Source: Chloroflexota bacterium | GTDB lineage: Bacteria; Chloroflexota; Dehalococcoidia; Dehalococcoidales; UBA2162 | DNA length: 35,487 nt | Reading direction: 5' to 3' | Assembly (NCBI GenBank): GCA_016199495.1 | Contig: JACQGQ010000073.1 | Location: 1 to 35,487, forward strand | Shown: piece by piece, positions 3,449 to 13,230 of the stretch | How the letters are laid out: each line of letters starts with the position of its first letter | Numbering within the stretch: the first letter of the stretch is position 1 | The notes under the pieces: model-generated | The model's database searches: none | What the model was told of the DNA's origin: nothing | The model's input: the letters and a program-made list of their open reading frames with translations, nothing else | Made by a program: the position numbers and the translations under genes

Positions 3449-4261
3449 ATGTCTTACCAGGCGGACTTATCGTTCCTGGACCGGGCGGAAATCCTGGAGA
3501 TTATCTTTCCGGTCGTTTATTCCCCTTTTTATTTGCCCGATGACGCCCGCTTTTCTCCGGCGGCTGTGCCCGCTTATGCCATCGAGGTTGAAGAGGGCAT
3601 TAAGATTGGTTGCGGATTCTGGATTAGTGGTCAGGAATGCCCTTCCGTCCTTTATTTTCATGGCAACGGGGAAACGGTAGCCAGCCATGACTGGATTGCT
3701 CCCCTTTACCATGAAAGAGGTATAAATCTTTTTGTGGCTGATTATCGGGGCTATGGTGACAGTGATGGTAAGCCAACCATTGCTAACATGATTGGCGATG
3801 CTCATACTATCTTCCAGGGATTCAAGGAGATAATCGAGCAGGAAGGCTTTAAGCAAAGCCTTTTCATCATGGGACGTTCCCTGGGTAGTGTCTCTGCCAT
3901 CGAGCTTGCCTTTAATTATCAGGATGAAATTTGTGGCTTGATTATTGAGAGTGGGGCGGCTAACAATTTCCGTCGCCTCTGGGATTACCTGGGGGTTGCC
4001 GACAAAGAAACCATTTTCAGTGAGGAAAGCCTCTTCTTAAACAAGGTCAAGATGAGACAGGTTCGGCGGCCGACCCTTATCATTCACGGCGAGTACGATG
4101 AGATGATCACGATCGACGAGGGGAAGGAGCTTTACCAGAGTTCGGGAAGCCGGGACAAAGAAATCCTGATTGTTCCCGGGGCTGGCCATAACGATATCAT
4201 GCTGGTGCAGCCGAGCCTGTATTTCGACACAATTGAGAAGTTTATCAAAACCTATGGCTAG
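3449..4261 (+). CDS. Alpha/beta hydrolase (serine hydrolase fold)
   Basis: ORF 3383..4261; ATG at 3449 is preceded by SD 'aggagag'. Nucleophile elbow GRSLGS, 'LYFHGNGETVASHDW', 'HGEYDEMI', 'GAGHND'. Confidence 0.87.
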   Translation: MSYQADLSFLDRAEILEIIFPVVYSPFYLPDDARFSPAAVPAYAIEVEEGIKIGCGFWISGQECPSVLYFHGNGETVASHDWIAPLYHERGINLFVADYRGYGDSDGKPTIANMIGDAHTIFQGFKEIIEQEGFKQSLFIMGRSLGSVSAIELAFNYQDEICGLIIESGAANNFRRLWDYLGVADKETIFSEESLFLNKVKMRQVRRPTLIIHGEYDEMITIDEGKELYQSSGSRDKEILIVPGAGHNDIMLVQPSLYFDTIEKFIKTYG

Positions 4262-4292
4262 ATAAGTAAAGATAGCCAGGGAGGATGAAAAC

Positions 4293-5138
4293 ATGGAACA
4301 GCTAATTGGCAGAGCCGCCAGGGATTTAGTTGATGCCCAATATGCGATTGCCCTGACCGGAGCCGGTATTTCAACCGAGTCCGGGATTCCTGATTTTCGG
4401 GGGCCTTCCGGTGTCTGGACGAAAAACCCTGAAGCCGAAAGAAGAGCCTACCTGGGCTACCAGAGATTTATGGCAGACCCCAAGAAGTGGTGGGAGGAAA
4501 GGTTAGCCAATCCCGGTTTGTTAGGAGACCTGGGCGCCGTCATGCCCAACGCTGGCCATTATGCTCTGGTTGAACTTGAGCAGTCAGGTATCATTAAATG
4601 CGTCATCACCCAGAATGTCGATGCCCTTCATGAAAAAGCGGGGACGAAGAGGCTCCTCGAATATCACGGCAGTACCGCCAAGCTAAGGTGCGTTGCCTGC
4701 GGCTTAAGGTTCAGGCGAGATGAATTTGATTTGTCAAGGCTATTAGAGGAAAAGCAATTGCCTCCCCATTGCCCCACGTGCCGGGGAGTAGTAAAATCCG
4801 ACGGCGTTTCCTTCGGCGAACCAATTCCCGGTGACGTGGCTCATCAAAGCCTGGAAGAAGCCGGGAAGTGCGATTTGATGCTCATTTGCGGCACTTCGGC
4901 GGTGGTTTATCCCTTTGCCAATTTGCCGCGAATAGCCCGTGAGAGAAGAACGGAGATGGCAAGAAAAACGGGAACGGGCATATCTGCCGTGAGAAAAGTC
5001 GCGGCAGTAACCATAATCGAGGTCAATGCTGACCCGACACCTTTAACCGAGGAAGGGGTTTCCGATTACCTGATTCAGGGGAAGACCGGGGAGATTTTAC
5101 CGGCGATAGCTGCCGCGGTAAAGAGGCTGAGAAAATAA
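4293..5138 (+). CDS. Sir2-family NAD-dependent protein deacylase
   Basis: ALTGAGISTESGIPDFRGPSGVW, TQNVDALHEKAG, EYHGS, Zn cysteines CVAC/CPTC, GTSAVVYP. Confidence 0.95.
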   Translation: MEQLIGRAARDLVDAQYAIALTGAGISTESGIPDFRGPSGVWTKNPEAERRAYLGYQRFMADPKKWWEERLANPGLLGDLGAVMPNAGHYALVELEQSGIIKCVITQNVDALHEKAGTKRLLEYHGSTAKLRCVACGLRFRRDEFDLSRLLEEKQLPPHCPTCRGVVKSDGVSFGEPIPGDVAHQSLEEAGKCDLMLICGTSAVVYPFANLPRIARERRTEMARKTGTGISAVRKVAAVTIIEVNADPTPLTEEGVSDYLIQGKTGEILPAIAAAVKRLRK

Positions 5139-5171: not shown

Positions 5172-5765
5172 ATGGAAGAGGGCGAAGGCATGGAGCAGCC
5201 AGCCACGGAAGTGAACATTAACCAGGCTAAGCTGGTTATCATCCAGGGAGATATTACCCGTCAAGCTACGGAGGCAATTGTTAATGCGGCCAACTCAAGC
5301 CTGATGGGGGGTGGTGGTGTCGATGGTGCCATTCACCGCGCCGGTGGCTCCACCATCCTGGAGGAATGTCGGCAAATCGTCTCCCGGCAGGGGCGATTGC
5401 CTGCGGGTAAAGCGGTCATTACCAGCGGCGGAAATCTCACAGCCAGGTTTGTTATTCATACCGTCGGGCCTGTCTGGCGTGGGGGTAATCAGGGAGAGCC
5501 GGAGCTACTGGCCAGTGCCTATCGGGAGAGCCTCAGAGTGGCCGCTGCTAATAATTTAGGCAGTATTTCCTTTCCGTCAGTAAGCACCGGCGTTTACGGT
5601 TATCCCGTGGCGGCAGCGGCCAGGGTGGCTCTGGGCACGGTGGCTTCATTTCTCCAGGAGCGGCCTACCTCAATCAAAGAAGTAGTTTTTGTGCTCTTCG
5701 ACCCGGTTACTTTTGAAAAATACTTGTCGGTGCTCGGGGAGATAGCCGGGGGGGTGAGAAAATGA
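5172..5765 (+). CDS. Macrodomain protein (ADP-ribose / O-acetyl-ADP-ribose binding, MacroD-like)
   Basis: IIQGDITRQATEAIVNAANSSLMGGGGVDGAIHRAGG, SFPSVSTGVYGYP. Start may be the second ATG at 5190. Confidence 0.94.
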   Translation: MEEGEGMEQPATEVNINQAKLVIIQGDITRQATEAIVNAANSSLMGGGGVDGAIHRAGGSTILEECRQIVSRQGRLPAGKAVITSGGNLTARFVIHTVGPVWRGGNQGEPELLASAYRESLRVAAANNLGSISFPSVSTGVYGYPVAAAARVALGTVASFLQERPTSIKEVVFVLFDPVTFEKYLSVLGEIAGGVRK

Positions 5766-5860
5766 AATACCCCGGCAAGCTGGTGGACATTCTCGGAACT
5801 TTTTATAAAGTCTTGTCACTTCTGGCTAAGGGCTACCCCCTGTTACCTGGGATTGTTTAG
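5762..5860 (+). pseudogene. Short ORF (MKYPGKLVDILGTFYKVLSLLAKGYPLLPGIV*) overlapping the macrodomain stop (ATGA) and ending inside repeat copy B
   Basis: Direct translation. The stop is the TAG in the repeat end 'gattgtttagtaacc'. Possible remnant of a truncated gene. Confidence 0.35.
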
Positions 5861-12929: not shown

Positions 12930-12965
12930 AAAAAAGTGGAGAGCACTTTGTGAGTGCTCTCCACT
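12930..12965 (-). terminator. Strong intrinsic terminator
   Basis: On complement: AGTGGAGAGCACT-CACAA-AGTGCTCTCCACT (13-bp perfect stem) followed by a T tract. Confidence 0.85.
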
Positions 12966-13196
12966 ATCTAGTTAAGTCTCTCCGAACCCAGCTCACTTGC
13001 GGTGTTCACCACTGCAGCAGGTCTCTCTTTTACGAGACTGACCTCTAACTCACTTCATCGAGCCAGGCTCAGTTTCCGTGTGCCCTGCTCTCAGGCAGGG
13101 CTTCAACTGTCTACTTGCCATACTCTCAGTACTGCATGAAGCCTCATGACCCGCCTCCAGAAGCCAAGATTCGAGTGGTATCATGTCACTTCTTAT
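12930..13196 (-). ncRNA. Candidate independently transcribed structured ncRNA (~265 nt, family not recognised)
   Basis: No convincing ORF between the convergent-facing amidase and the enoyl-CoA hydratase 3' end. Strong promoter upstream, multiple hairpins, strong intrinsic terminator downstream. Confidence 0.6.
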
Positions 13197-13201
13197 CTTT
13201 A

Positions 13202-13230
13202 ATTAAAGCACAGAGAGTTTAGTTTGTCAA
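13202..13230 (-). promoter_or_regulatory. Promoter of the candidate ncRNA
   Basis: On complement: TTGACA - 17 nt (aactaaactctctgtgc) - TTTAAT. Confidence 0.75.

Follow-up and report, generated by a model that had tools for sequence, protein, structure and literature searches.

A free-standing RNA gene of Dehalococcoidales with a conserved 14-codon open reading frame and a possible ribosome-pausing nascent peptide

A self-contained transcription unit

The window, meaning the whole 35,487-nucleotide stretch of a Chloroflexota bacterium that was analyzed, carries a compact minus-strand transcription unit between genes read as encoding an amidase and an enoyl-CoA hydratase. Its features are a promoter, a Shine-Dalgarno sequence, a 14-codon open reading frame (ORF), a GC-rich hairpin, a three-way-junction fold, and an intrinsic terminator (Table 1). 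An earlier note on this DNA had described a structured noncoding RNA at this position, bounded by TTGACA and TTTAAT boxes 17 bp apart and by a 13-bp terminator hairpin with a T tract, and both ends of the unit were confirmed on the minus strand. Nearly all free-standing homologues have TTGACA, with a spacer that is mostly 17 bp, and this recurrence shows that the box in the window is no chance match. The promoter scanner had passed over the TTTAAT promoter solely because it required the second base of the −10 box to be A. Conservation in the homologue alignment extends over the −35 box, the body, and the terminator, the last kept with many compensatory changes, and the strong sigma-70-type promoter is predicted to yield a transcript of ~265 nt.

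Table 1. Positions of promoter, ORF, structural, and terminator features within the window
Feature	Positions	Strand	Evidence or remark
−35 box TTGACA	13225..13230	−	Near-invariant among free-standing homologues
−10 box TTTAAT	13202..13207	−	T-rich/A-rich −10 boxes at the equivalent place in homologues
5' end segment GAAGUGACAU	13183..13192	−	Can pair with ORF codons 2 to 4 (or, in certain lineages, with a GCUUC immediately 5' of the Shine-Dalgarno sequence)
Shine-Dalgarno GGAGG	13154..13158	−	In 61/65 homologues; search pattern did not contain it
Micro-ORF, 14 codons plus stop (ATG...TGA), MRLHAVLRVWQVDS then stop	13103..13147	−	Amino acid constraint
Hairpin GCCCUGC-CUGAGA-GCAGGGC, starting 7 nt past codon 13	13082..13101	−	Covariation
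Closing helix of three-way junction (13 bp), 5' strand CUGAGCCUGGCUC	13060..13072	−	Double changes at 8/13 pairs
Junction hairpin AGGUC..UCUC/GAGA..GACCU	13019..13044	−	Double changes at 9/9 pairs
Junction hairpin GCAGUG-GUGAA-CACCGC	12999..13015	−	Double changes at 4/6 pairs
Closing helix, 3' strand GAGCUGGGUUCGG, conserved GUGAG-YYGGGUUCGAG	12982..12994	−	Conservation, covariation
Intrinsic terminator, 13-bp stem (12965-12935) plus T tract to 12930	12930..12965	−	

The nearest upstream and downstream genes of the named loci fell into orientation classes of 14, 12, 12, and 12, with no gene consistently downstream; flanking orientation is therefore random and the RNA gene stands alone. The same counts ruled out that the free-standing form is a cis-acting leader of one fixed downstream gene, and about half of the free-standing copies have no codirectional gene downstream at all.

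A plain DNA search among related genomes recovered homologues in 35 of 101, the window's own genome included. With a covariance model, the element was found in 85 of 156 sampled Dehalococcoidales (Chloroflexota) genomes, representing 48 of 85 genera, and in a sample of the class 43 of 393 genomes matched, other orders among them. A search of 85,462 species with a DNA pattern derived from the peptide returned 57 stretches from records labeled almost all as Dehalococcoidales, Dehalococcoidia, or Chloroflexota. No copy was found in family f9, represented by near-complete genomes of 1.4 to 2.1 Mb, or in the viral contigs searched. Carriers are mostly metagenome-assembled draft genomes (MAGs), and two with outlying labels were set aside: L088 (JABMRW010000038.1, "Deltaproteobacteria") is a mislabeled MAG, the same contig position being present in genome G105, which is placed in Dehalococcoidales, and L094 (JAPKYM010000075.1, "Bathyarchaeota") is a 2-kb contig that is probably contamination, with a peptide resembling the Dehalococcoidia copies. 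In one draft genome, the copies G005:C39 and G005:C90 share the same ORF sequence and the same match score, through recent duplication or as an artifact of assembly.

At the Rfam 15 gathering threshold, no family matched the element in the window or 14 homologous loci, and at a lax threshold the window gave terminator noise only, so the RNA is not known from Rfam. The earlier note had recognized no signature of RNase P, tmRNA, signal recognition particle (SRP), or 6S RNA, and none of these matched in the window. A divergent, lineage-specific version of one of these housekeeping RNAs would fit the finding that most carrier genomes have one copy of similar size, and the Rfam 6S model had no match in any of 25 carriers. 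However, tmRNA scored above the cutoff in 20 of 25 carriers, RNase P was found in 4 of 8 and small SRP RNA in 2 of 8, and all three lie elsewhere in one carrier (G067); the presence of these canonical genes refutes those identities. The 6S model (RF00013) had no match in the window, where the fold is a three-way junction accompanied by an ORF, unlike the 6S rod with its central bubble, and the element was not found in about half of the genomes of the order. A housekeeping identity is accordingly very improbable. In open-license papers, no relevant report of the VWQVD motif and nothing on small RNAs of the class was found, and the conserved micropeptide RNA appears not to have been described before. 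With strong covariation, no Rfam family, and conservation across the class, the earlier suggestion of an undescribed, lineage-specific RNA held.

The 14-codon ORF and its variants

The earlier note had seen no credible ORF in the body of the RNA, a statement contradicted by the ORF, its Shine-Dalgarno sequence, and conservation at the protein level. Alignment of its homologues points to the 5' third of the RNA being an ORF of the translated type under strong amino acid constraint. Among 65 nonredundant pattern-matched copies, V9, Q11, V12, and D13 were invariant, encoded by all four Val codons, both Gln codons, and both Asp codons. Position 10 was W in 62 copies, R in 2, and F in 1, and R at this position also occurred in several copies reached only by the RNA model. 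For the ORF, the synonymous fraction was 0.50 to 0.53, versus 0.19 to 0.21 in column shuffles (0/300 and 0/500).

Because the 65-copy set had been selected by a pattern containing the motif, the coding test was repeated on 29 of the 30 loci recovered by the plain DNA search (the extraction rule excluded L019, which reads MKLYMWYGVRQVDR followed by a stop). In these loci, codons 8 to 13 had a synonymous fraction of 0.79, versus a column-shuffled value of 0.22 (0/500); neither frame +1 nor frame +2 rose above the null, and no constraint was found in codons 14 to 20 (96/500). The coding constraint ends at codon 13.

The N-terminal MRLH is constrained in part at the RNA level, because the 5' end of the RNA pairs better with codons 2 to 4 of its own genome: the pairing score was 13.1, versus 11.9 when partners were shuffled among genomes (0/300), relatedness being uncontrolled in this comparison. 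L012, for instance, pairs GAAGC with GCUUC, and at the same place L016 pairs GAAACC with GGUUUC. The segment before the Shine-Dalgarno sequence gave no significant pairing with the 5' end overall (28/300). A CAUGA-GGCU-UCAUG hairpin drawn by the earlier note sits within codons 1 to 5 and has weaker support than the pairing of codons 2 to 4 with the 5' end.

A second form, type B, is also free-standing and has the same fold, with a stop at codon 15 and the endings GVW[LF]FP[SN], GRWNFPS, or GVWLFPI (L210, L212, L214, L221, and L223). Genomes G010, G047, G136, and G015 hold both types, and their QVD-type copy (QTD in G015) has R, not W, at position 10. A natural length variant, L208 (G035:C148), reads MTKPQKLFGVWQIDS, with Asp at codon 14 rather than 13 and Ile in place of Val. 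Apparently decayed copies, with an in-frame stop before codon 13, were seen at L227 (G114:C137), at L141 near position 5353, and at G081:C65 and G081:C83.

Fold, hairpin, and leader copies

Folding of the body beat 200 dinucleotide shuffles (z = −4.4), and covariation among related genomes was strong. In a 45-sequence alignment, the named fold had 129 cells with changes on both sides of a pair, versus 42 in shuffled alignments and at most 43 in slid controls, and double changes occurred at 25 of 35 pairs. For the long-range closing helix that had been suggested from the single sequence, the 3' strand stood and the 5' partner did not; the true 5' strand had been taken for a separate GAGC-CUG-GCUC hairpin. 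The small hairpin on the CACC side is real by covariation, in the form GCAGUG/CACCGC, as is the GCCCUGC-CUGAGA-GCAGGGC hairpin just past the ORF, with 95.9% of cells paired and double changes at four of seven pairs. The CUGAGAG repeat shows no conservation and seems to be coincidental.

SgrS/SgrT and RNAIII/delta-haemolysin are autonomous small RNAs with their own promoter, terminator, and small ORF. The present element shares this autonomous architecture and a small ORF with coding constraint, and it may likewise be a dual-function small RNA, its fold acting in trans on mRNAs or a protein while translation of the ORF modulates or supplements the effect. A free-standing gene with its own promoter and terminator and randomly oriented neighbors agrees with such a role, as does the covarying three-way junction, and pairing of the 5' end with codons 2 to 4 could gate initiation. 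In contrast to those RNAs, the peptide here is shorter and far more constrained and has paralogous leader forms, which drop the junction and keep the ORF and hairpin; a dual-function role is rather unlikely.

These leader forms consist of the ORF and hairpin only, lacking both junction and terminator, and occur as additional copies in genera g28, g47, g15, g51, g72, and others, sometimes repeated in tandem at intervals of ~3.5 kb. In most cases, the next gene begins about 100 to 190 nt beyond the copy. By a simple coding-sequence (CDS) rule and a crude hydrophobicity rule for signal peptides, the next CDS had a signal peptide in 20 of 28 scored leaders, versus 79 of 428 neighborhood genes; in several of the other eight (such as L147, L151, and L157, judged by eye), the longest-ORF rule had passed over a nearer signal-peptide CDS. 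Pfam matches in genes after leaders were above threshold for matrixin (E value of 2e-9) and DUF6345 (1e-30) and just below it for Peptidase A4 and Trypsin. The leader peptides remain constrained, codons 5 to 13 having a synonymous fraction of 0.61, versus 0.21 (0/500). A TTGACA promoter was present in just 2 of 27 leader copies, leaving promoter donation unsupported. At L138, L141, and L144, tandem operons each have their own GVWQVD leader, then an exported-protein gene (several are peptidase-like), often followed by a lipoprotein gene. Such operons would represent an expanded secreted-protein regulon in two genera. At L072, group II intron RNA matches (4221-4454 and 5688-5776) lie a few kilobases upstream of a GVWQVD leader copy.

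Since the junction is lost from leaders and the ORF and hairpin are retained, comparison of the two forms indicates that selection centers on the ORF rather than on the fold. A purely noncoding structured RNA, as first proposed, would account for the strong, covarying fold and the autonomous promoter and terminator but not for the codon-position pattern, the frame specificity, the conserved Shine-Dalgarno sequence, or an ORF that leader copies still conserve without the fold, and it is hardly credible. The structured, undescribed, and lineage-specific character of the RNA and its own promoter and terminator thus survive from that proposal, and its noncoding character does not, given the ORF constraint and paralogues that retain ORF and hairpin only.

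Possible ribosome pausing and comparison with known systems

The GC-rich hairpin starts 6 to 7 nt past codon 13 in 60 of 65 copies. The stop is at codon 15 in 41 of the 65, and the remainder run on, many into the hairpin loop, with peptide tails that vary from 14 to more than 30 amino acids. With codon 13 paused, the hairpin start would lie near the mRNA entry of the ribosome, and from this spacing the constrained part of the peptide ends where the ribosome would meet the hairpin. The geometry of ORF and hairpin suggests ribosome stalling.

The reading we prefer, tentatively and with somewhat less than even confidence, is that the gene, a free-standing one, encodes a short regulatory RNA that is translated and whose nascent chain makes the ribosome pause at codon 13. 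A ribosome would bind the Shine-Dalgarno sequence and make M-R/K-L-H-x-x-x-G-V-W-Q-V-D; once Asp13 had reached the P site or its vicinity, the growing peptide would pause the ribosome before the hairpin at its fixed distance. This pause, perhaps dependent on a cue, could alter how the three-way junction downstream folds or how stable it is. In leader copies, the same pause would control the downstream exported-protein gene. Constraint that stops at codon 13, the fixed distance of the hairpin, freely varying synonymous codons with no residue repeated, and reuse of the module in leaders favor this reading, and the varying tails are more easily explained by a peptide that acts within the ribosome than by one that is released. 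For the free-standing copies without a codirectional downstream gene, about half, a pause would have no obvious cis target. Attenuation by tRNA starvation, as in the leader peptides of amino acid operons, is unlikely because synonymous codons are free and no residue is repeated, and no fixed downstream gene was found.

A released 14-amino-acid micropeptide could instead be the product, binding a cellular target or serving as a signal, in which case the fold at the 3' end would lend stability to the mRNA. Strong amino acid conservation and the Shine-Dalgarno sequence favor this, the stop at codon 15 that is common in free-standing copies fits it as well, and the GVWLFPS sister type is likewise 14 amino acids long. 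However, the C-terminal extension is unconstrained and variable in length, in leaders especially, the peptide has no export signal, and release leaves the fixed hairpin distance and the use of the ORF in leaders unexplained. Such a product is unlikely, yet it and a dual-function small RNA are serious rivals to pausing at codon 13. A bolder version of pausing is quite doubtful: the RNA, carrying a ribosome stalled on the invariant 13-residue chain, might work in trans, sensing ribosome state or acting as a sponge for it, the module having been copied repeatedly into exported-protein leaders and the GVWLFPS sister type sensing something else.

Among known arrest peptides, one close resemblance is to ErmBL, in which Arg7, Val9, and Asp10 are critical and Asp10 occupies the P site (PMC4935803). 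The order and spacing of [R/W]10-Q-V12-D13 match those of ErmBL R7-x-V9-D10 (PMC4935803). By this comparison the match is one of resemblance, not membership: it covers four residues in an unrelated context, W is commoner than R at position 10, and a terminator follows the element, with no erm-type gene downstream and no resistance or other fixed target gene. As in ErmBL, TnaC, and ErmCL, arrest leader peptides that sense drugs or metabolites, a short ORF precedes an RNA hairpin and the residues nearest the catalytic center are the most constrained, whereas the main form here is free-standing with a terminator and the leader forms precede exported-protein genes. The idea of a regulatory nascent chain with a link to protein export is shared with the Sec/YidC-related arrest peptides SecM, MifM, and VemP (surveyed in PMC7897499 and PMC10987492). 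Unlike those, the present peptide has 13 to 14 residues and no signal or membrane segment, and the genes downstream encode cargo (peptidases and lipoproteins), not export machinery. The cyanobacterial downstream-peptide motif and Yfr6 offer a further parallel, with a ~250-nt RNA, a structured part, and a short conserved ORF of unknown role (PMC2864571). The conserved structure there, however, is 5' of the ORF and riboswitch-like, whereas the covarying structure here is 3' of the ORF, in an element from another phylum that has no Rfam match.

The element is a gene conserved across the class that annotation has missed doubly, as an RNA without an Rfam family and as a protein of 14 codons. In leaders, the pause would control exported-protein genes, and in the free-standing RNA, folding or stability. 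If pausing is true, uncultured sediment bacteria would contribute a short arrest motif that occurs naturally as two sequence types (QVD and LFP) and is linked in some genera to exported peptidases; the question raised would be what role a leader peptide has in an RNA that leads nowhere.
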